Source of the DNA: a virus
DNA length: 27,489 nucleotides
Reading direction: 5' to 3' (one strand)
Virus record (IMG/VR): IMGVR_UViG_3300020442_002207
Span: 1 to 27,489 of that record
Below, in pieces: positions 3,180-13,686 of this stretch (position 1 is its first letter; each line of letters opens with the position of its first letter). The notes under the pieces are model-generated. The model had not been told where the DNA came from. It did no database searches and saw only the letters and a program-made list of their open reading frames with translations. The position numbers were made by a program, and so were the translations under genes.

Positions 3180-3699
3180 TAAGGATTGTGTCAAGTGTAT
3201 AATCTTTCCATTTTGTAAATTTGTCACTGTCCATTAAATCATGAAGACGATGACACCATACACCTGGATTTGTACTGTTATAAGATTTATCATCAATCTT
3301 AATCATTGTATTATAATTCCAAAGTTTTACATATGGTACAGGCACTCTAATTTGAGGAATGAAATTATTAAATTCACATAGCCCTCCTTCATTAAATTCT
3401 TCAACTGCACTAAATGGAATGTCTAAGCTGCATAAATGTCCTTCTTTTAAAAAATGTTGTATCATTTGTTCCCATTCATTCCATTCTTCAGATGTTTTAG
3501 GATCAAAAGAATGGTTTGCACCAAAGAAAATATGTTCAGCTTTTAATTTTCCAATTGCATTTGTTATATCTAAAATAGGTTGAACACCTACTACAAATAA
3601 AGTATTCATTGCGTATGCAGGTGTCTTTTCTACTTCTCTACCGTAAAATAATTTTACATCATCTCTATCTAATTTTTCATTGCTGTAATTCCTGTCCAT
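3175..3699 (-). CDS. Hypothetical protein, 174 aa, coupled to TGT-like gene
   Basis: Not recognised. It has an alpha/beta look: NTLFVVGVQPILDITNAI (32-49) is a strand-helix pair, KAEHIFFGANHSFD (53-66) the next strand, followed by an acidic, tryptophan-containing helix and a proline/aromatic region (IRVPVPYVKLWNY). A late CHRLHDLMD stretch contains H, C and D residues that could bind metal, but no family motif is clear and there is no cysteine triad of a radical-SAM enzyme. Its start overlaps the stop of the TGT-like gene (TAATG), so the two are probably made together. I infer a partner role with that enzyme. Confidence 0.65.
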   Translation of the reverse strand: MDRNYSNEKLDRDDVKLFYGREVEKTPAYAMNTLFVVGVQPILDITNAIGKLKAEHIFFGANHSFDPKTSEEWNEWEQMIQHFLKEGHLCSLDIPFSAVEEFNEGGLCEFNNFIPQIRVPVPYVKLWNYNTMIKIDDKSYNSTNPGVWCHRLHDLMDSDKFTKWKDYTLDTILK

Positions 3700-5165
3700 T
3701 ATACCTCTTCAAAGAGTTCGTTAAATTTTGTTGTAGCGTTGGTCATTTTTTTACCAGTTAATCCTCTAGTACCAATTATGCTATCAAGGTAACGTTGATA
3801 ATCATCATTTATTTTATTAGCGATATCTCTATTATCTGTTGCAAATATTTCGTTGACTACAGATTTAAATTCTTGAACAATTCCTAAATATTTTTCATTA
3901 ATAAGCATTGAAGGATAACATCCGCTATCGTATTTTTTATTTGCCTCTTGAACAGCGTTGATATGCATCCATACATTGTGGCCCATCATAATAGCATAGC
4001 TAAAACTGTCCCATGAAGTTTTTCCTTCTTTGCCTATTTTATTTAGATCACCTGGGCCGTAAATGCATATATCTTTGGCAGTAAGTCCTGTTGTGATTGG
4101 AGAATTAAGAAAACTTTTATGCTTTCCTTCTCGAATAAATGCTTGGCTGAACGGAGTTGAATCGGAAGAAAAAGACTTATCGTCAATACTTGGTACCATT
4201 CGGTACACCCATTTTTGTTTATGATCTGTTTCTAGTTCACAATATATTTGACCGTTAGCAGTAGCAAGGAAAGGACTTGCACAATCAAATGTAATCATAA
4301 AATTTTCATTATGATATTTTCGTACAGCTCTTTGGATATCAGTTAATAAAACAGCCCATTCTAATTTGCTAGTACCTAAGAAGTGCATAACATCATGCAC
4401 ACCTTTTTCAAGCAATCCGTCATATCTTAGGCTAATTAGTCTCTTTAATGCTAAATGGACGTCGCACATATTTTGACCCCCCATGCTCCAACCATTAAAG
4501 TGATTTGCAGGATATTTTTTTGGATCACAATAATCTTTCATTTGTTGATACCAATCGTCTGCATCTGTATGATTTTCACCTTGGAGTACGTTTAAAAATT
4601 TACATGCTCCTGATCTATTTTTCATCCAATAATCATTATTGACCCGTGTTGCATTCACTGCTTCTTGATATGTTGTTACACCTGTTGCTTTTTTACCTTC
4701 TTCACTCCTAGCAACCCAAGCAGGTATATCTAAAATCATACCATAGTCCATATAAGCATCCATCCAACGTAGAACATCGTTCCGTTTTTTGCTTGCTTTT
4801 GGGCATGAAGGGTCTTTCCAATCACCTTCCCATACACCTTTACCAATTTGAAATCCACCACTATCACCTAGTAACCATGTGTTATTCCTATCACGGTTTC
4901 TTATCATATCTTCTTTAGGTGAATTTTTAGAAATATCTAAATCGGCATGTCCTGCAGAATACAACGTCCATTTATAATAGAAGTTACCTTCGTGCTTATT
5001 AAGATAGTTTAAGCTTTCAACACCATTGATTAAATTTGGAGGAATTCTAGATTTGTCAACATATTCTTCAGCTCTTTGCTTGCCTATAAAAGTAGCATAA
5101 AATCCACTCAATGCAGGCAAGAACAGAGCATAATCTTGTTGTGTGTTGGTTAAATTTATGTTCAT
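3699..5165 (-). CDS. tRNA-guanine transglycosylase-like enzyme (TGT/DpdA superfamily)
   Basis: A 488-aa protein with the catalytic landmarks of the TGT superfamily, which swaps guanine in a polynucleotide for a 7-deazaguanine base. LLGDSGGFQIG (98-108) carries the DSGGFQ base-pocket motif. VLQGE (193-197) matches the IVQGG loop. GWSMGG (225-230) matches the AIGGLAVGE loop. HFLGTSK (261-267) matches the YLMGVG strand, and ITFDCASPF (291-299) places D294 at the nucleophile of bacterial TGT (DMFDCV). The CxCxxC zinc site of bacterial TGT is not evident, and the C-terminal ~170 residues are different. Phage and genomic-island relatives called DpdA act on DNA rather than tRNA. This may be DpdA-type, supported by the nearby T-fold gene, but DNA versus tRNA specificity is not shown by sequence. 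Start overlaps the clamp gene stop. Confidence 0.75.
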   Translation of the reverse strand: MNINLTNTQQDYALFLPALSGFYATFIGKQRAEEYVDKSRIPPNLINGVESLNYLNKHEGNFYYKWTLYSAGHADLDISKNSPKEDMIRNRDRNNTWLLGDSGGFQIGKGVWEGDWKDPSCPKASKKRNDVLRWMDAYMDYGMILDIPAWVARSEEGKKATGVTTYQEAVNATRVNNDYWMKNRSGACKFLNVLQGENHTDADDWYQQMKDYCDPKKYPANHFNGWSMGGQNMCDVHLALKRLISLRYDGLLEKGVHDVMHFLGTSKLEWAVLLTDIQRAVRKYHNENFMITFDCASPFLATANGQIYCELETDHKQKWVYRMVPSIDDKSFSSDSTPFSQAFIREGKHKSFLNSPITTGLTAKDICIYGPGDLNKIGKEGKTSWDSFSYAIMMGHNVWMHINAVQEANKKYDSGCYPSMLINEKYLGIVQEFKSVVNEIFATDNRDIANKINDDYQRYLDSIIGTRGLTGKKMTNATTKFNELFEEV

Positions 5166-5896
5166 TATTTAGTATGACAAGGGAGAATGTATTCATAAGT
5201 TGCTAGTCCACTGTCAATCGCTATTTTCATAACACCATCATCTGAAATACTAATATTAGAATCGCCAGATAAACTTAAAATACTTTGAACTTCTAATACA
5301 GGATATTTCTTTTTGGTATTTAATTTACCTCCAGCTTTATGCTTAAAGACAAATTCTCCCGATTGCGTAGAGTCATTACCAAATGAAAAAACTAAATTTT
5401 CTTCGTCGCTTCTCACTTGGAAATGAGGTTCCTCTGAATGAATAGCACTCATTAACTTCATTCTAGTAATACTAGCAACAGGTGGTTGGAAGTCAAGTTG
5501 CCAGTTCGCACCTTTGAATTTGAATGTTTTTAGATTAGAATCGATTATTTCTTTGTTAATAAATCTATAGTCATTTTGAAAATCACCAATTACATTTTCG
5601 AAATGAATATATGCAGGATATTCTTGATCGTCTTTTTGTTTTTTTACAATTTCAATTTTTGCGTCTTCTTGATATTCAGGATTTTTTAACAGTAAATTTA
5701 GTTTTTCTAAGTAAGCCATGCCAAATGTTCCTGTAAAATCGTCAATTCTTTCATGTGTGGTTGCATTAAGAATTACACTTCGATCATCAGTAATGCTTTG
5801 AATGGTAGTATTATGTTCATCTGTTACAACTTTTAAAGTTGATAAAAAACCTAGTGCATGTGTGTGGGAAACAATGTCTTGTAAAATGTCTTTCAT
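5165..5896 (-). CDS. Probable DNA polymerase sliding clamp (gp45-like, divergent)
   Basis: A 243-aa protein whose size and strand pattern fit a gp45/PCNA-type clamp, the ring that tethers gp43 to DNA and, in T4, activates late transcription. Features are an N-terminal helix, an acidic loop DDFTGTFGMAYLEKLNLLL (52-70) comparable to the T4 gp45 segment DFDVAIYDLNGFLGILSLV, a mid-protein domain linker, and a C-terminal VMKIAIDSGLATYEYILP (222-239) resembling the closing strand of PCNA (HLKYYLAP). gp43 lies 4 kb upstream in the same direction. The adjacent 1181-aa gene is an obvious paralogue. It has its own AAAGGAT ribosome site and starts 14 bp after that gene. Clamp loader genes are not in the window, so the assignment rests on sequence pattern and context; a structure prediction would settle it. 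Confidence 0.6.
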   Translation of the reverse strand: MKDILQDIVSHTHALGFLSTLKVVTDEHNTTIQSITDDRSVILNATTHERIDDFTGTFGMAYLEKLNLLLKNPEYQEDAKIEIVKKQKDDQEYPAYIHFENVIGDFQNDYRFINKEIIDSNLKTFKFKGANWQLDFQPPVASITRMKLMSAIHSEEPHFQVRSDEENLVFSFGNDSTQSGEFVFKHKAGGKLNTKKKYPVLEVQSILSLSGDSNISISDDGVMKIAIDSGLATYEYILPCHTK

Positions 5897-5910: not shown

Positions 5911-8900
5911 TTATGTGTTAGTTGTGCCTTGTAGTATATAATTGTATATACCATTTGGGCTCTTTACAGTTATCATTAAACGGCCTTCGTCTGATATTCG
6001 CATAACCTTATCGCCGTTGAGCAAAAATATAGCCATTATCTGTTGCATATGGTATGTCCATCTTTTATCAAGGTAGCTTACGGTTGTTAAATAAGAATTT
6101 CTATCATTAACAAATATTTTAGCTTCATTTCCTAAACCTGTCAATGCTGGATTGGCAATTATTTCTTTTATATAATCTTGCCTGACTTCAAATGTATATA
6201 CATATTTTTTATCTAAATTAATTTCATTTACAGGTCTGCGTATATCAAATGCTTTACTTACATTTTGATCGATATATTCGGGTGAGGTAGGAGGAAGGGC
6301 TGGAGGTACACTTATGTTACCGCTCATGTGTGTATGCCAAGGACATAAGTAGTAATAGGTGTTGTTTTCAGTTACAGTCCAGTTTACAACAGTTGTGCCA
6401 TTGCCGTACGAGCCAGGTGCGTGATATCTTGTTTTTCGTTCTAATTTTGTTTTAATCCAAAAAGGATGTTCCGCAGCAGTGCTTGGGTCTATTATGAATT
6501 GAACTTTATCGCCAATGTTAAAAGATAAATTAGGCATAGTAGAAAGGTTAAATGTACCATTCCTATCCTCGCCTGTCATTACATATTCTTCTAGTACATT
6601 AGTAATAGTTATTACATAGTTTGGTGTAAAAATAGGAGAAAGCGCACTACGTCCATACAAATAATCGTTGTCTTCATAATAGTACGGGCCCCATATACTG
6701 TTATCCTGAGGCAATGGCAAACTTACATTGTTAAATATATGATCATAAGGTTTTGTGTTTGGAATAGGATTTAAATCACTATGATATAGATTTTGTCTTG
6801 TGTATAAAGTAGGAGGATTACTAATTGTTGTGGTCTCTGTGCCTATATAACTTGTGAAAACAAAACCATTACCAGTGTCATGTTTAATAAAAAATTGTCC
6901 ATCTGTATTGTCTAATATTTTTATTGGACCGTTAACAGTGTCTGAAATTTTAATCCTATTGTTGTTTAATATGTCTTTGATATAATAAGTTTGATCCTCT
7001 AAGATACCAGTGTCTTCTAATGGACTGTTATTTTGATACGCTTCAAACTTAATTGGCATATCTTGTCTAAACCATGTAGTATCGTCTACATGTAATTCGT
7101 TTGCCTTGTGATATATTTCAAATTGGAAATTACTATATGGAACTGGTTTTACTGGACCCCCTATAGTTTCTGAAATCGTAAATTCTACTCTAACAAAATC
7201 TATTTTCATTTCAAATTCAAAATTTGAATAAGGTAATAGTAATTGTTCGCCGTACAGTTCGTTGCTTAATGTGAAAAATCCTCCAGGATAAACTTCTAGT
7301 ATGTAAAATTTCCTGTAAGGATCGGGATTCAAAGGGTCTTCTAATTCAGCTTCTTCCAGTGCGCCAGTTGAGTCTGGTAAATTAGCAAAATACACTTCAA
7401 CACCTGGATACAACACATCAATAAATCCTTCTTCTTCCGACACATCTAATGAAAGTATTCCGTCACTATCTACGCCCGTTACTAAGAAAGTCTCTTCTCC
7501 GTCATAAAATTTTGTTATTTCTTTGACATAATATGTTTGTTCTGGATCTAGCTCTGCTTGTTGTAGTGCCTCTGCAGAATCTGGCGGATTCCTAAATTTA
7601 ATAGGTAAGTTTGGTTCTAAATATTTCCAAAGCTCTTTGCCATTAGTTTGAACTGGGTATGCACCAGTAAAATCAAAAAGTTGATATATATTGCAATCTA
7701 TAGTTAAAAATAATTCAAAATTAGAATAAGGGATGATGTGAGCTGGCCCGTTTATTGAATCAGCAAACGTGAATCGTTCGCAGTCTAAAATCTCTTTAAC
7801 ATAATATGTTGCTAAAGGATCTAATCCAGCTTGCAAAACTGCATCTGCTGAGTCCGGAGGACCTGTAAACCTAATTGGATTGTTTTCTTTTAAAATACTT
7901 GTATCTGCTATAGTAATTACAGTGTTTTCTTCTTCTTCAAAAGGACCAATAAAATAATTCCTACTAGGCATTTGCCTATATATGGTATCATTGTATTCTG
8001 CATAATTAGTTACAATTGTTTTAAAATTTTCTATAATGCGTGGAATGTAAGTTCCTGTAATGTTCTCCTCAAATACGATTTCGCCGAAATTAGGATTGTC
8101 TTCACCAAAATAAAATTCTAAATTGTTTTCTACCTTCTTGTCACTTGCTGTTACGATATTTACAAAAAAATCAAAATTGGCAAATGGTAATAAAAGGGTA
8201 TCTCCCCCTTGACTATCAGATATTGTGAACTTACCATCGCTGTATGTAGTTTTTACATAATAGACCGTATTTTCTAGTAAACCTATTTGATCTAATGCAG
8301 CAGTTGAGTCGCTTGGATTAGTAAAAAGTATACCTGTTCCTGGACCTACAACAAAGGTAGGAGAGATCAATCTACTATCAGTATCAACTCCTGTGACTAA
8401 ATTAAAACTAGTTCCTTTTGTATATAAATCAAATGTTAAGTAATCGGTATAAGTTAAAGCCATGAAGTCAAATCTTGAGATTTGTGTTTCTGTAATATTT
8501 AAACCAAAATTCCACAAACTGTTTTTAAAATCCAGCATAGGGTGTTGTTCTAATACATTTGATCTATCGATTAATTGATATTCATCTAGGAATGTAGCAT
8601 CGGCATTAGAAAAATTTATTTTAGTTGAAACAAATTCATTTTGTTGATCTTGATTATTAACTACAATGGAGCTATTAGTTGGATATTCTTGTAGATTTTC
8701 TAGTATGTTGAATAGTTTATATAAATCAACCATTCCAAATTCTTTATTAAAATCACGTATTTTTTCGTCTGTCCTAGCTTCTAAATATACAATGGCATCT
8801 CTCGTTACACCTTCAATAAATGTTTGATCTTGTATTATTTCAAAACTAGTGATGTGTGACTGAGCAAAATGTTGAAAATTGTAATGAGAGTCAGGCACAG

Positions 8901-9456
8901 AATTTTCTAGGTGTTGAGAAGTGCTAATTCTTATCTTGTTATCATCGTAGATGTCGTAAATAAAATATTTTGTTAATTCTGAAATTTCTGCAATGCTTGC
9001 AAGTTTTGATCCTGGTGTAGGGTATTCTTCAAAAATTATACGCATCCCAATGTCTAGCCAGGATGTATCTTTTACAATTAAATAGCTCCTGTCATAGAGT
9101 ATATTAAAAGATCCTGTACTTGTAGTCAAAGACAAAACCTCTCCAGGTAGTTCAGTCTCTCCTATTGAAAATTTAATACAATTTGTTCCTCCTACAATAT
9201 TTTTTACATAATAATATTTGCTAGGTCCTATTTCTGTAGCTATACCTGCAAATCTTACTTTCATTTTTTCTTCTAACCACGGTACATTGCTTAAAGTTGT
9301 GACTAATTGATTAGTTTCAGGTTCAACCCTAGTAATAATACCTGTCAAATCTGGAATTATTTCTATTACTTCGCTTTTTATGTGGTATAATTTTAGAAAA
9401 TGAAAAAGTGTATTATTATAAGTATAATCTAAAATTTCTTGTAGAATTTCTCGCAT
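5911..9456 (-). CDS. Giant clamp-like paralogue with virion-type repeat and cupredoxin insertions
   Basis: A 1181-aa protein whose scattered segments match the 243-aa clamp-like neighbour: 1-33 to clamp 1-33 (MREILQEIL vs MKDILQDIV); 219-301 to 37-118 (EKIRDFNKEFGMVDLYKL vs ERIDDFTGTFGMAYLEKL); 315-347 to 133-165; 444-471 to 166-193 (NNLEFYFGEDN vs ENLVFSFGNDS); and 1135-1179 to 198-242 (ISDEGRLMITV vs ISDDGVMKIAI, ending YNYIL vs YEYIL). Between them sit three insertions (about 34-215, 351-440, 475-1075). These contain tandem units of the kind seen in marine phage structural proteins (xIKFxxPPDSAxAL, TYYVKEI, FTISDSxxGP, PYSNFEF). A cupredoxin-like domain lies at about 955-1052, with candidate copper ligands H997, C1038, H1041 and M1044. 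The frame is uninterrupted. It has its own late-type promoter (9504-9511) and GGAG ribosome site. Function is unknown. Confidence 0.8.
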   Translation of the reverse strand: MREILQEILDYTYNNTLFHFLKLYHIKSEVIEIIPDLTGIITRVEPETNQLVTTLSNVPWLEEKMKVRFAGIATEIGPSKYYYVKNIVGGTNCIKFSIGETELPGEVLSLTTSTGSFNILYDRSYLIVKDTSWLDIGMRIIFEEYPTPGSKLASIAEISELTKYFIYDIYDDNKIRISTSQHLENSVPDSHYNFQHFAQSHITSFEIIQDQTFIEGVTRDAIVYLEARTDEKIRDFNKEFGMVDLYKLFNILENLQEYPTNSSIVVNNQDQQNEFVSTKINFSNADATFLDEYQLIDRSNVLEQHPMLDFKNSLWNFGLNITETQISRFDFMALTYTDYLTFDLYTKGTSFNLVTGVDTDSRLISPTFVVGPGTGILFTNPSDSTAALDQIGLLENTVYYVKTTYSDGKFTISDSQGGDTLLLPFANFDFFVNIVTASDKKVENNLEFYFGEDNPNFGEIVFEENITGTYIPRIIENFKTIVTNYAEYNDTIYRQMPSRNYFIGPFEEEENTVITIADTSILKENNPIRFTGPPDSADAVLQAGLDPLATYYVKEILDCERFTFADSINGPAHIIPYSNFELFLTIDCNIYQLFDFTGAYPVQTNGKELWKYLEPNLPIKFRNPPDSAEALQQAELDPEQTYYVKEITKFYDGEETFLVTGVDSDGILSLDVSEEEGFIDVLYPGVEVYFANLPDSTGALEEAELEDPLNPDPYRKFYILEVYPGGFFTLSNELYGEQLLLPYSNFEFEMKIDFVRVEFTISETIGGPVKPVPYSNFQFEIYHKANELHVDDTTWFRQDMPIKFEAYQNNSPLEDTGILEDQTYYIKDILNNNRIKISDTVNGPIKILDNTDGQFFIKHDTGNGFVFTSYIGTETTTISNPPTLYTRQNLYHSDLNPIPNTKPYDHIFNNVSLPLPQDNSIWGPYYYEDNDYLYGRSALSPIFTPNYVITITNVLEEYVMTGEDRNGTFNLSTMPNLSFNIGDKVQFIIDPSTAAEHPFWIKTKLERKTRYHAPGSYGNGTTVVNWTVTENNTYYYLCPWHTHMSGNISVPPALPPTSPEYIDQNVSKAFDIRRPVNEINLDKKYVYTFEVRQDYIKEIIANPALTGLGNEAKIFVNDRNSYLTTVSYLDKRWTYHMQQIMAIFLLNGDKVMRISDEGRLMITVKSPNGIYNYILQGTTNT
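6301..6594 (-). other. Cupredoxin-like domain within the giant clamp paralogue
   Basis: Residues about 955-1052 of the 1181-aa protein read as a small blue-copper fold: PNLSFNIGDKVQFII, then AEHPFWIKT with H997 at the position of the first plastocyanin copper ligand, and YYYLCPWHTHMSGNISV with C1038, H1041 and M1044 in the order Cys-His-Met. The Cys-x2-His spacing equals plastocyanin; the His-Met spacing is shorter (x2 rather than x4). Copper binding is likely but unproven. Confidence 0.6.
6886..8334 (-). repeat. Degenerate protein repeats inside the giant clamp paralogue
   Basis: At protein level, units of about 55-60 residues recur at residues 375-430, 527-586, 618-648 (truncated), 687-750, 755-781 (tail half only) and 800-857; a weaker copy is at 66-120 (9261-9097). 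Each complete unit runs: hydrophobic strand plus PPDSAxALxxAxLDP, then TYYVKEI, then FTISDSxxGPxxxxPYSNFEF. A separate linker motif (VTGVDTDS, VTGVDSDG, MTGEDRNG) recurs at 354, 659 and 960. Spacing and sequence are too diverged for recent duplication, but the order is consistent. Confidence 0.75.
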
Positions 9457-9503
9457 TACAACTCCGTTTCTTATTATTAGTATTTAACTAAAAAATCATA
9501 GAG

Positions 9504-9511
9504 TATTTATG
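9504..9511 (-). promoter_or_regulatory. T4-type late promoter candidate (CATAAATA)
   Basis: Minus strand CATAAATA overlaps the stop codon of the 184-aa gene and would start RNA near 9498, about 40 bases before the giant gene's ATG, which has GGAG upstream. One mismatch to TATAAATA. It suggests the clamp-paralogue pair can be transcribed late, apart from gp43. Confidence 0.5.
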
Positions 9512-10061
9512 CTGCATCATCAAAAGGTTTAGGAAGATTATTTACAATTATTTCTATTTTGTTATCGTCGTCTTTTAATTTAATAGAGATATTTTGATTG
9601 TCTTCTAAAGTAGCAGTATGTTCGATACCATCTTGTTTAATGCTAATTATTTTTGCATCGGTCATTTTCTTTAATTCTGTTCCGCCAAACAGTAAATTAT
9701 GTATATCCATGTATCCACAATCCATACCTACACCGTACATACTCATATCAAAACCAAAAATTTGATATAGTACATATCTATAGCTTCCGTTTTTTTCAAT
9801 GTCTCCTTTATGAATTCGTTTACAAACTGCATAAAAAGCTTTTTCTCTTTCTTCTTCACTAAGAATATCCCACCATTTGTCATTGTCAGCTTCGTACTGT
9901 TCTGTGGCTTCTTTATAGGCTTTTTGCGCTTCTATAAATTCTGGAGAGTTAATACTATCTAGTAGTCTTTTCTTTTTAAGTTCTACTGCATGTCCATTAA
10001 ATGATTCTTCCCATTTGGAAGATATTTCTTTTAATTTTTCTGGATTTTCTTCATCAGTCAT
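9507..10061 (-). CDS. Hypothetical protein, 184 aa, downstream of gp43
   Basis: Unknown function. The N-terminal ~70 residues are strongly charged and helical (EKLKEISSKWEES, EEEREKAFYAVCKR), likely a coiled coil. The centre holds a glycine/tyrosine stretch (DMSMYGVGMDCGYMDIHNLL) that looks conserved in character. The last 50 residues alternate as beta strands (IISIKQDGIEHTATLED, ISIKLKDDD). It starts 3 bp after the gp43 stop, with GGGAG upstream of its ATG, so it should be co-transcribed with the polymerase. A replication accessory role is a guess from position. Confidence 0.65.
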   Translation of the reverse strand: MTDEENPEKLKEISSKWEESFNGHAVELKKKRLLDSINSPEFIEAQKAYKEATEQYEADNDKWWDILSEEEREKAFYAVCKRIHKGDIEKNGSYRYVLYQIFGFDMSMYGVGMDCGYMDIHNLLFGGTELKKMTDAKIISIKQDGIEHTATLEDNQNISIKLKDDDNKIEIIVNNLPKPFDDAA

Positions 10062-10064
10062 TAT

Positions 10065-12734
10065 TTACTCCCATTCAAACAGATTATTGAAATTATTATT
10101 TTGTTTTGTTTCGTCTAAATTATAATCTAGCACACCTATTAAATTGTCTAATTTTTTATCGATAATTGCTTCTTCCATTCCGTCACTGTCAAAAGGAAGT
10201 TCTTTAAACCAGTCAGGTAGTCTTAGTTCGTCTACAGGATATGCAACACTTGTGTAGCCAATTGGATTAGCTCTTAATTTACATACAATTACTTTCATGC
10301 CATCAACAATGTCCATGCTATATTTGTCATTGTGTATTTTTTTAAGGGTATTCCAATTTAAGCTTGCTCTAACATGTCCTGGCAAATTAGCTTTTCCTTT
10401 AGATTCTTCTAGTCTCTGATAATATCCTATTTTATTTGCACGTTTAGGAGATCCTTTTTCCCATCCTGGTCTTTCTTTAAAATCTGCTCTAAATTCTGTA
10501 ATACGATCAATGATCTTGTCTTCTGCAACTTCTTGCAGGACCATCATTAAAATTTCCATTAAGAAATCTTGCATATATGTCGGAGTATCTGATCTACGCA
10601 AATCTAAACCCATGGCTTTTACTTTACCAGGTTTTCCGTCTACATCTTTCCGTTCGCCTTCTAAGTCATATACTAAAGCTGCATAACGTTTTTTAGTTAT
10701 ATATAAACCAGATTCTGCTACAATTTCACGCCCTGCTGCAATTACAGTTGATCTACTTACTGGACAATGGAAAGCATTAGCCATAAAATCTTTAAAAGTT
10801 TTATTTGCTTCCTCTGCGATTTGATCATATAGTGTTATAACAGACTCTTTAGACCATGGAATAGATCCATTATCTATCTCTTTTTTAAGCACCGGATACG
10901 CACTGAAATAAACTGAATCAGTGTCGCCGTATATGACAGCTTTTCCTACGTGATTGTAATCACCAGTTATTACCTTATTTACTTCTGCACTCATATGTTT
11001 AACAATTTGTCTACCAGTTAATGTAGTTGACTGGCCTATACGCTTGTCGAAAAATCTACATCCTGGATTTAGTATTGCACCATACAATGAATTTAAATTA
11101 ATCTTTTTTACTAACTGTCTCTTATCCCAAAAAGCAATTTCTAATTGATTTCCTGCTTCAATAGCTTTCTTTTTCATTGCTTGTAGTTCTTTACGTTCAG
11201 CATACCAACGTTTTAATATTCCTGGTATCACACCCTCAAATTCTGTAGTAAATATAGTGCCATTTGCACTTAACATCCAAGGCATTCCGCTGTCGAATAT
11301 TAATTTATATATTTCAGCACCGCTCATTATTTTAGATTCTTCATTTTCAAAATCAACTGTTATTACAACGTCTTTCTTTTGAGCAATGACAGCTTCATAC
11401 TCTTCAGTGCCAAATTTACCTTCCCATGCACTTGCAAATGACTTTTTTTGTAATGTTATGGCTTCTTGGATTGTTGCATCTGTTTTTTCTGGTCTTAATT
11501 GTCCTATAATTGTTTCTGGAGCCATATTTAACGCTCGAATTACACTTGGATATAGACTGTTTAAATCCATACTTCCTATCCATTTGTGTACACCTTTTTT
11601 TGGAAATGCAACATACGCACCAGCAGCAGCAGTATTTTCATCATCTCTTTTTGGACGATTAGGTACTCTCATACCTCTTTCATGTGCTTCATTTATTATA
11701 GCTTGTTCTGTTACTGCAACTGCACCCATTGTTGTTTGGAGTAATACAGTGTTTGCATGGGCAAGTTCGTTACTTAGATCAATAAATTTAAGCTTTTTGT
11801 CTAATTTGTCTAGTAGTGCTACGTCTTGTCTGTTATATTCTATAAATGTTTTAAAATCGTTATTGTATAATTGGTCAAGGGTGCCTTCATATACAGTTTT
11901 ACGCTCACCTACCTCCATTTCCCCTATCGCATCAAGTCTATAACTATGGCGTTCTTCGTATGTGTATTTTCTGTATAGTTCTAAACTGTCCAAATGAACA
12001 CGGCCAACTAGGTCGAATGTTTCAGCTTTTTTACCAAACTTTTCATATTCTCGTTTCTTTGGTAATTGTTTCCACAAGCAAAAACGTCTTGTATCATCTT
12101 TGCTTAAGATTCTACTTACACGATTAACTGTATACGGAATATCGTAACCTTCGGAGTTCCAACCGCTTAATACGTCGGCATCTTCTATAAGATCAAGGAA
12201 TGTTTCAAGCATCTTTCCTTCGTCGGTAAACAATAGGACTTCTTCGCCCCATTCTGCGACTTCATGTTTTGCTTGTTCTAGTGAGAGTGTTTTAGGCGGA
12301 AGTGCTAGTGTAATTAATGCATCCAACCATTGCAAATTTACAGTTATTGCAGTAATTGGCATAAATGGATCTGCTGGATCAGCAAATCCTCTATCAGGAT
12401 CAAAGTCTGTTTCTATATCAAAAAATGCAATATTTAATTTTGGTGCATCTTGATTTAGATAATTTTCACTTAAACATTGGAAGATAGGATTTATATCGCT
12501 TTCGAAGAGAGTTTTGTCTCTATTTATTGCTATTTCTTTACGGAAATCTTTAGTATTACGGCAAGTTATTTTGCTTAACGGATCACCGTATATACTTAAA
12601 TATTTGCCTTTAGGATCTTTGTAATAAAAAGTATATTTTACCGGATATTCGGTAAATTTTTTCTTACCTTCTTTCCTTTCTACAATACGAATTAAATCTT
12701 CATTTCTATCAAAAATAGCATCAACATAACTCAT
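10065..12734 (-). CDS. gp43: DNA polymerase, T4 gp43 type (family B)
   Basis: Replicative family B polymerase of 889 aa, near the length of T4 gp43 (898). The 3'-5' exonuclease is intact: AFFDIETDFD (103-112, D106 and E108), GWNSEGYDIPY (191-201, D198) and EYNRQDVALL (299-308, D304). Polymerase motif A is MDLNSLYPSVIRAL (389-402, catalytic D390), motif B KKINLNSLYGAILNPG (543-558), and motif C YGDTDSVYF (602-610, two aspartates). The protein ends FNNLFEWE, which could be the clamp-binding tail found in gp43 relatives. All catalytic residues are present. The leader contains an ATAAATA late-type box (12807-12814), and read-through from the dsbA promoter could give earlier expression. The clamp-like gene lies downstream on the same strand. 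Confidence 0.97.
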   Translation of the reverse strand: MSYVDAIFDRNEDLIRIVERKEGKKKFTEYPVKYTFYYKDPKGKYLSIYGDPLSKITCRNTKDFRKEIAINRDKTLFESDINPIFQCLSENYLNQDAPKLNIAFFDIETDFDPDRGFADPADPFMPITAITVNLQWLDALITLALPPKTLSLEQAKHEVAEWGEEVLLFTDEGKMLETFLDLIEDADVLSGWNSEGYDIPYTVNRVSRILSKDDTRRFCLWKQLPKKREYEKFGKKAETFDLVGRVHLDSLELYRKYTYEERHSYRLDAIGEMEVGERKTVYEGTLDQLYNNDFKTFIEYNRQDVALLDKLDKKLKFIDLSNELAHANTVLLQTTMGAVAVTEQAIINEAHERGMRVPNRPKRDDENTAAAGAYVAFPKKGVHKWIGSMDLNSLYPSVIRALNMAPETIIGQLRPEKTDATIQEAITLQKKSFASAWEGKFGTEEYEAVIAQKKDVVITVDFENEESKIMSGAEIYKLIFDSGMPWMLSANGTIFTTEFEGVIPGILKRWYAERKELQAMKKKAIEAGNQLEIAFWDKRQLVKKINLNSLYGAILNPGCRFFDKRIGQSTTLTGRQIVKHMSAEVNKVITGDYNHVGKAVIYGDTDSVYFSAYPVLKKEIDNGSIPWSKESVITLYDQIAEEANKTFKDFMANAFHCPVSRSTVIAAGREIVAESGLYITKKRYAALVYDLEGERKDVDGKPGKVKAMGLDLRRSDTPTYMQDFLMEILMMVLQEVAEDKIIDRITEFRADFKERPGWEKGSPKRANKIGYYQRLEESKGKANLPGHVRASLNWNTLKKIHNDKYSMDIVDGMKVIVCKLRANPIGYTSVAYPVDELRLPDWFKELPFDSDGMEEAIIDKKLDNLIGVLDYNLDETKQNNNFNNLFEWE

Positions 12735-12805: not shown

Positions 12806-13402
12806 TTATTTATTTAATATTAACTGATTTGCTCCGTCATTAGAGCCTATCGTTCCGTTAATAAATGAATTAAAGGATAAACTTATTCTTGTATATTTTT
12901 CATAGTTAATAGGAGGAACATAATGTTCTAGATAAGAAGGAAACATTATTAAAAAATTATTACATACAGTCTGGATATATTCCCCACCGTGTTCATTACA
13001 TCCTATCATTAATTGACTTTTGATAGGATGAACAAATCTAATGCAGTCACTTTCTTCTGATACATTTATATAAAAAACACCACTTATAATACTATTGCTG
13101 TGACTGTGGACATGATGAAAATCATTTTTACCGTTAAAAGTTATCCAGCTGTTAGTTATATAAGGGTTAATATTATTATCTATATTGTACAGATGTTTAT
13201 AGTAAATTTTAAGATGTTCCTCAATAAAAAGTTTGATATCTACAAATTCTTCTAAAAATAATACATTTTTGTTTGTAGATAGATAATTGCCAATGTTTCT
13301 TGTAACGTTATCAGAAATGTTTTCAATTGGTTCTTGTAAATTTAAATTTTTTCTATATATAGTTTTGTATATTTCTATAGGAAATATTTGTTCTACGGAC
13401 AT
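12806..13402 (-). CDS. 2OG-Fe(II) dioxygenase family protein
   Basis: A 198-aa non-haem iron, 2-oxoglutarate-dependent oxygenase of the type frequent in marine T4-like phages. The core is visible: a strand WITFNGKNDFHHVHSHSNSI with candidate iron ligands H99 and H101, SGVFYIN next, the distal ligand in FPSYLEHYVPP (H160), and YTRISLSFN with R172 to hold 2OG. A longer reading frame reaches 13477, but ATG 13402 makes a TAATG overlap with the upstream gene, and the extra 25 residues are cysteine-rich shadow of that gene. Substrate is unknown; nucleobases, proteins and small molecules are all used by relatives. It is the last gene of the dsbA operon. Confidence 0.85.
   Translation of the reverse strand: MSVEQIFPIEIYKTIYRKNLNLQEPIENISDNVTRNIGNYLSTNKNVLFLEEFVDIKLFIEEHLKIYYKHLYNIDNNINPYITNSWITFNGKNDFHHVHSHSNSIISGVFYINVSEESDCIRFVHPIKSQLMIGCNEHGGEYIQTVCNNFLIMFPSYLEHYVPPINYEKYTRISLSFNSFINGTIGSNDGANQLILNK
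12807..12814 (-). promoter_or_regulatory. T4-type late promoter candidate upstream of gp43
   Basis: Minus strand AATAAATA overlaps the 2OG oxygenase stop codon and would start RNA near 12801. The leader then carries a short GCUC/GAGC hairpin (12779-12792) and a T-rich stretch before the gp43 ATG. The polymerase is normally an early gene, so this may be secondary or accidental. Confidence 0.35.
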
Positions 13403-13686
13403 TAGTACCAACCCATTGCACGACCAAAACCGAAAACATGCAAGCATGCAAAGTATATAGTCATTACAAGAGGCCATCCGACACCTCGTCTAACAAATGC
13501 AATTATACTAAATACTGCTCCTGTAAAACTAACAGGATATATTAGATGCATAGGCGGATGCTGTGCTGTAACAGATATCCATGTCATACTTGTAAACACA
13601 CAAATACTTGCAATTGTTTCAAAATAAAATGCAACACGATCGCTAGTATAACTCCTAATCCAAAAATCTTTAATTTTTTGCCACAT
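13402..13686 (-). CDS. Small inner-membrane protein, 94 aa
   Basis: Three hydrophobic segments are visible, around residues 20-38, 46-64 and 71-90, with a basic RRG turn between the second and third and a positively charged start (MWQKIKDFWIRS). No enzymatic motif. It is joined to both neighbours by TAATG stop-start overlaps, so it is made with DsbA and the 2OG oxygenase. Early position suggests a host-takeover or envelope role, but this is inference. Confidence 0.7.
   Translation of the reverse strand: MWQKIKDFWIRSYTSDRVAFYFETIASICVFTSMTWISVTAQHPPMHLIYPVSFTGAVFSIIAFVRRGVGWPLVMTIYFACLHVFGFGRAMGWY

Follow-up and report, generated by a model that had tools for sequence, protein, structure and literature searches.

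Several departures from the standard sliding clamp have been described. Archaeal PCNA1/2/3 form mixed rings, and these proteins and the eukaryotic 9-1-1 are duplicated clamp paralogues that have diverged from the standard clamp. In ubiquitinated or SUMOylated PCNA an extra domain is attached at K164, in the βB2-C2 hairpin; this residue lies on the back face of PCNA, which has prominent loops (PMC7225939). The fold, the existence of paralogues and modification at the K164 hairpin are thus already known for clamps; we describe here a paralogue in which three loops hold large fibre-type inserts, a form that is undescribed as far as we have found. It is encoded in a 27,489-nucleotide viral sequence (IMG/VR record IMGVR_UViG_3300020442_002207, positions 1 to 27,489; the window), next to the gene of an ordinary clamp of 243 amino acids (aa), and occurs in a group of large bacterial viruses as a swollen clamp copy of about five times the normal size. 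We know of no sliding clamp whose loops have taken up whole domains, nor did the openly licensed literature that we searched contain one.

The 243-aa protein (5165-5896, minus strand) had been called clamp-like from the sequence alone, and its AlphaFold2 model bears this out, with a predicted local distance difference test (pLDDT) score of 92.9 and PCNA as the top PDB matches in Foldseek (E 1.5e-11, probability 1.00). We therefore take this confident two-domain PCNA fold to be a sliding clamp. Its homologues in PA5oct, Phosso, Atu_ph07 and Vibrio 2.275.O are encoded directly behind the DNA polymerase gene or one small gene later, and the clamp gene adjoins the polymerase gene in the relatives of the window too. 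The family B DNA polymerase of the window (10065-12734, minus strand) ends in FNNLFEWE, and tails of this kind were found in 66 of 69 relatives. This clamp-binding-like tail resembles the related C-termini through which T4 gp43, gp55 and gp33 bind gp45 (PMC2988020). Given the fold, the polymerase-adjacent gene and the polymerase tail, the 243-aa protein is most likely the working clamp of the phage. The comparison also identifies an overlooked clamp family of jumbo phages, phrog_12062, which is labelled 'unknown function' in PHROGs; the authors of the RaK2 study found no gp45 homologue (PMC3622015). The PA5oct clamp, used as a seed, brought in no further relatives from IMG/VR.

The large gene upstream of the clamp is, as originally noted, an open reading frame (ORF) of 1181 codons for amino acids (5911-9456); it lies on the minus strand and begins with ATG, and we refer to its product as BIG. 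Its 3' end is separated from the clamp ORF by 14 bases. BLASTP against the clamp gave three collinear matches, namely BIG 202-361 with clamp 18-176 (E 3e-9), 443-468 with 165-190 (E 0.002) and 1129-1175 with 192-238 (E 1e-5). With a profile built from 63 IMG/VR clamps homologous to the 243-aa protein, BIG scored 105.5 bits (E 5.9e-31), while the top of 1000 shuffles reached 5.7 bits. Each clamp-like part also matches on its own: residues 1-40 match profile positions 1-25 (E 2.7e-4), 200-350 match 27-165 (E 7.5e-24), 436-485 match 164-192 (E 6e-7) and 1125-1181 match 191-240 (E 1.5e-14), and the inserts tested alone gave no match to this profile. The original prediction of five ordered segments is thereby upheld in the homology and corrected in the count, as four segments (1-33, 204-350, 441-472 and 1128-1181) are collinear with residues 1-240 of the clamp family. 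When these segments were spliced together, a check that had been proposed with the prediction, the core without inserts aligned end-to-end with the clamp family in hhalign (probability 99.9, E 3e-32). The external profile phrog_12062 is matched by two relatives of BIG, the 800-aa L079 (37-39% identical; E 5e-7) and the full-length L133 (57% identical; E 6e-6). On these alignments, BIG is a paralogue of the adjacent sliding clamp, homologous to it from the first to the last residues. Sequence searches of Pfam, NCBIfam and PDB with BIG and the 243-aa clamp returned nothing useful.

Compared with PCNA, gp45 and phrog_12062, the core of BIG is collinear over the whole length, has the same order of secondary structure in its segments and is likewise encoded beside clamp and polymerase genes. 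In contrast to them, it contains inserts of about 170, 90 and 610 aa, has an altered connector loop and C-terminal front-face motif, is dispensable, and is confined to one phage clade, where it stands beside an intact clamp. The three insert sizes, obtained by alignment with the clamp secondary structure, agree with the total of about 870 residues estimated beforehand.

All parts of BIG are encoded on the minus strand. Clamp segment A (residues 1-33; 9358-9456) supplies helix A1 and strand B1, and is followed in the βB1-C1 loop by insert 1 (residues 34-203; 8848-9357), which the repeat hidden Markov model (HMM) and the alignment resolve into two repeats (45-122 and 120-208). Segment B (residues 204-350; 8407-8847) covers the rest of domain 1, the interdomain connector, helix A2 and strand B2. 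Insert 2 (residues 351-440; 8137-8406), with a single repeat (358-435), occupies the βB2-C2 hairpin and leads to segment C (residues 441-472; 8041-8136), which forms strands C2 and D2. Insert 3 (residues 473-1082; 6211-8040), in the βD2-E2 loop, is made of four repeats, a linker and a cupredoxin-like domain. In the C-terminal part (residues 1083-1181; 5914-6210), segment D (residues 1128-1181) provides strand E2, helix B2 and strands F2-H2. Residues 1083-1127 (6076-6210) form an extra conserved strand-helix unit ahead of segment D, which is also present in the third ORF of the relative L085 and is possibly part of a duplicated clamp half-domain.

According to this alignment, the inserts leave the helices and the ring-contact strands of BIG unbroken. 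All three should lie on one face of the clamp, the back face, because the turns share one edge of the antiparallel sheet and the domains are related by the pseudo-sixfold of the ring. The βB2-C2 hairpin is the site of K164 in PCNA (numbering checked), and insert 2 sits at the equivalent hairpin; we base this equivalence on how the secondary-structure elements are ordered, since the clamp could not be aligned directly with PCNA domain 2 by profiles. The extra domain of modified PCNA and insert 2 thus occupy the same back-face position, although the domains of BIG are genetically built in, occupy three loops and are not ubiquitin-like, and a shared function would be conjectural. An intein or intron origin of the inserts was considered and rejected, as they are in frame, made of repeats and under purifying selection.

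The repeat HMM found eight matches in BIG, which represent seven copies of an 80-aa repeat with one copy split; insert 1 holds two copies, insert 2 one and insert 3 four. The split copy (halves 602-650 and 754-784) is interrupted by another, nested repeat at residues 671-753 (7198-7446). The cupredoxin-like domain (residues 941-1053; 6298-6636) was recognised by family profiles and by Foldseek, where it was the only part of the whole BIG model to give matches; plastocyanin and amicyanin were hit with a probability of about 1.0, but with E values of just 0.01-0.1. Candidate type-1 copper ligands H997, C1038, H1041 and M1044 (His plus Cys-x2-His-x2-Met) are present in the window group and in L133 and have been lost in L016, L073 and L094. 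The domain matches phrog_677 (baseplate wedge-tail fibre connector) and the S-CAM1 tail fibre phrog_15006, and the same domain occurs in marine myovirus tail-fibre and baseplate-connector proteins of phrog_9158 and phrog_27200. In phrog_9158 and phrog_677 it is C-terminal, whereas in BIG it lies inside a clamp loop; two cyanophage cupredoxin proteins that we scanned contained no clamp match. Assignment of the BIG cupredoxin to a virion type, that of tail-fibre and baseplate-connector families, is supported by these profile matches. The original description of the inserts as virion-type modules is thus borne out as to the presence of repeats and cupredoxin; the virion type holds for the latter and only weakly for the repeat.

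BIG was found in 17 further IMG/VR contigs, full-length or split, among them homologues that lack insert 2 or the nested repeat. No relevant match was obtained by tblastn in the phage collection with full BIG, or with the repeat block at E up to 10; none of the cultured phages there carries BIG, and bacterial and archaeal genomes contained no relative of BIG. In trees, the BIG cores form one clade on a long stem, with the same branching order as the clamps that these phages encode; judged by these trees, BIG has one origin. The L016/L073/L094 and L079/L099/L085 groups have no insert 2, its site being clean, and L079, L099 and L085 are also without the nested repeat. From these relatives it appears that parts of BIG were probably added stepwise, and the empty site and the repeat within a repeat agree with the original proposal of loop insertion as opposed to end fusion. 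Stepwise insertion on one face, relatives with empty sites and split genes together show which loops of a clamp tolerate large inserts.

The ratio of nonsynonymous to synonymous substitution rates (dN/dS) is about 0.13 over the whole of BIG and does not exceed about 0.3 in any one region, being low in the clamp parts and the inserts alike; BIG is under purifying selection. In L079, L096-L098 and L099 the gene is split into two ORFs by a 4-base ATGA overlap. The split is the same in L096, L097 and L098 and is kept in L099 at 81% identity. In L085, BIG consists of three ORFs, the last of which (126 aa) holds the C-terminal clamp strands. The split versions of L079 (4238-7962) and L085 (4218-7974) carry other domains and proline-rich linkers in place of the cupredoxin, and a clamp built from separately translated pieces, as in these two, would be unusual. 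Two close relatives nested among the carriers, L010 and L011, do not have BIG, indicating that it can be lost and hence is dispensable. The pieces in L079 and L085 and the absence from these two relatives are what one would expect if the large ORF were an assembly artefact or a decaying pseudogene. We regard this as scarcely credible, because the low dN/dS in clamp parts and inserts and the identical split, conserved in L099 with its ATGA overlap, speak against it, and the occurrence in 17 more contigs rejects misassembly, including the misassembly at the insert borders that the original prediction had named as a possible refutation.

We favour, with a probability of roughly 0.4, the reading that BIG is a clamp-derived, ring-like scaffold that displays virion-type domains, probably in a virion or adhesion context, over a role in replication as a tether or in a mixed clamp ring. 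The observations behind this reading are that the clamp was duplicated, that its core is conserved, that material was inserted stepwise into three loops with one repeat nested inside another, and that BIG is dispensable and under purifying selection. In the proposed course of events, the clamp would have been duplicated, its sequence kept end-to-end and three loops of one face filled with virion-type modules. The clamp core, by itself or together with the ordinary clamp, would trimerise to give a ring-like hub. Judging from the topology, the seven repeats and the cupredoxin would project from the back face of this hub as arms and attach to a surface or to another protein of the phage. BIG would then end in, or help to build, a virion or adhesion structure and would most likely not be a processivity factor.

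The scaffold reading draws on the retained core, the one-sided inserts, the tail-type cupredoxin, fast modular evolution, the loss of the front-face motif and dispensability. BIG is 71% identical where the polymerase is 92% identical, and its domains have been gained, swapped and split; such evolution, including the loss of copper ligands in one clade, is like that of fibre proteins. Of 11 conserved connector-loop residues BIG keeps 2, although distant true clamps themselves keep just 3.5. The charge of the connector changes from +2.8 in the clamp to −1.0 in BIG, and the C-terminal ILPxxxK of the clamp is replaced by ILQGT. We also counted for this reading that the PA5oct clamp homologue is annotated as 'structural protein' with a note of electrospray ionisation tandem mass spectrometry (ESI-MS/MS). 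These features suggest that a ring has been reused outside replication, as a scaffold. The narrower version, in which a sliding clamp with fibre-type arms on its back face has become a structural ring, either of the virion itself or of an adhesion complex associated with it, is more doubtful; if true, it would represent a phage structural protein of a new class, one that stems from the replisome.

Several points weigh against the scaffold reading. The AlphaFold model of BIG is low in the clamp core, with pLDDT of about 25-40 in segment B, where helices and strands are nevertheless mostly at the expected places; confidence is limited to parts of the repeats and the cupredoxin, and the clamp fold of BIG therefore rests on sequence. 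The link of the 80-aa repeat to virion proteins is weakly supported, by one match in a cyanophage 'fiber protein' (E 0.001), and the ESI-MS/MS note on PA5oct may reflect contamination of particles by an abundant protein. In every carrier, moreover, BIG lies in the replication cassette and not in a structural gene cluster.

This constant position, in the order polymerase, 184-aa gene, BIG and clamp, with 7-15 bases between BIG and the clamp in single-ORF carriers, is what would be expected if BIG were an intracellular replication or late-transcription factor that acts on DNA in mixed rings with the 243-aa clamp or in a ring of its own. Its back-face arms would then tether the replisome or other phage proteins, much as PCNA gains binding surface from ubiquitin or SUMO on K164, and insert 2 lies exactly in the equivalent hairpin. 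Archaeal and eukaryotic clamp paralogues do not carry large fibre-type loop inserts, and a mixed ring of BIG is a proposal. The DNA-facing helices of BIG are about neutral (charge sum +0.2), as in distant true clamps (+0.6 for the PA5oct, Phosso, Atu and Vibrio clamps; +1.9 for near clamps), and the shared branching order of the BIG and clamp trees also agrees with such a role. However, fibre-type modules would be unusual in a replication protein, the front-face and connector residues of BIG have diverged, and two close relatives lack BIG; one of them, L010, shares a clamp allele with the carriers L008 and L006 (95-96% identical), so that the clamp is independent of BIG. A need of BIG for a private clamp partner is disfavoured for the same reason. 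We consider a replication or late-transcription role somewhat less likely than the scaffold, which stays the preferred explanation, and place it ahead of the remaining alternatives.

The alleles just mentioned bear on another possibility. Across the window, L008, L006, L010, L011, L093 and L095, with polymerase identities of 89-97%, there are discrete alleles of the clamp and of the neighbouring 488-aa gene (together 3699-5896), which are 53-70% and 59-81% identical between types and 93-99% within a type. This suggests recombination at the clamp/488-aa cassette, and a replication clamp is unusually variable in this respect given the polymerase identity. Such alleles would be expected under pressure to change, as in a model where BIG is a decoy or shield: by imitating the phage clamp it would divert host factors that recognise or inhibit that clamp, its arms serving as binding surfaces, and the clamp locus would diversify under the same pressure. 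BIG is also accessory and fast-evolving. Nonetheless, alleles may be swapped for other reasons, seven repeats and a cupredoxin are more than a decoy needs, and we know of no host factor or defence system directed against this clamp. We find this explanation improbable and keep to the clamp-derived scaffold.

The region upstream of BIG contains a candidate operator or promoter element, TTTAGTTAAATACTA (9478-9492, minus strand), conserved about 20-35 bases before the BIG start. It is identical before BIG in three clades, without a second exact match in those contigs, and has short inverted arms (TTAGT/ACTAA). This 15-base element suggests that BIG is controlled separately. The T4-type late promoter core TATAAATA occurs 0 times in the window, against 5.4 ± 2.1 expected from shuffles, and its lack is not informative as a clue to the timing of BIG. 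Upstream of the element lies the gene of the 184-aa protein (9507-10061, minus strand), which has no assigned function and in this group always stands between the polymerase and BIG or the clamp. Within 27 kb we found no clear partner gene that tracks the presence of BIG.

On the other side of the clamp, the 488-aa protein (3699-5165, minus strand) contains a DSGGFQ motif and ends in KFNELFEEV, like the clamp-binding-like tail of the polymerase; ends resembling this one are found among relatives of the carriers (14 of 72 overall). Family searches gave no match for this protein. The motif recalls tRNA-guanine-transglycosylase or DpdA-type enzymes, and the protein may be recruited to the clamp as a DNA-modifying enzyme.

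A 2-oxoglutarate-Fe(II) oxygenase-like gene (12806-13477, minus strand; PF13759, 5e-16), located between the polymerase and a small gene, is patchily distributed, being present in G002 and L011 and absent from G001 and G003. In relatives, an upstream gene of about 250 aa was considered as an insert-free second clamp and rejected, since it has a sugar-nucleotide epimerase sequence and no clamp similarity. Many relatives without BIG (L013-L088) have an epimerase-like gene of this kind before the clamp, with a 4-base overlap with the clamp start, and in L079 (8735-9451) and L085 (8729-9454) it is found behind the clamp.

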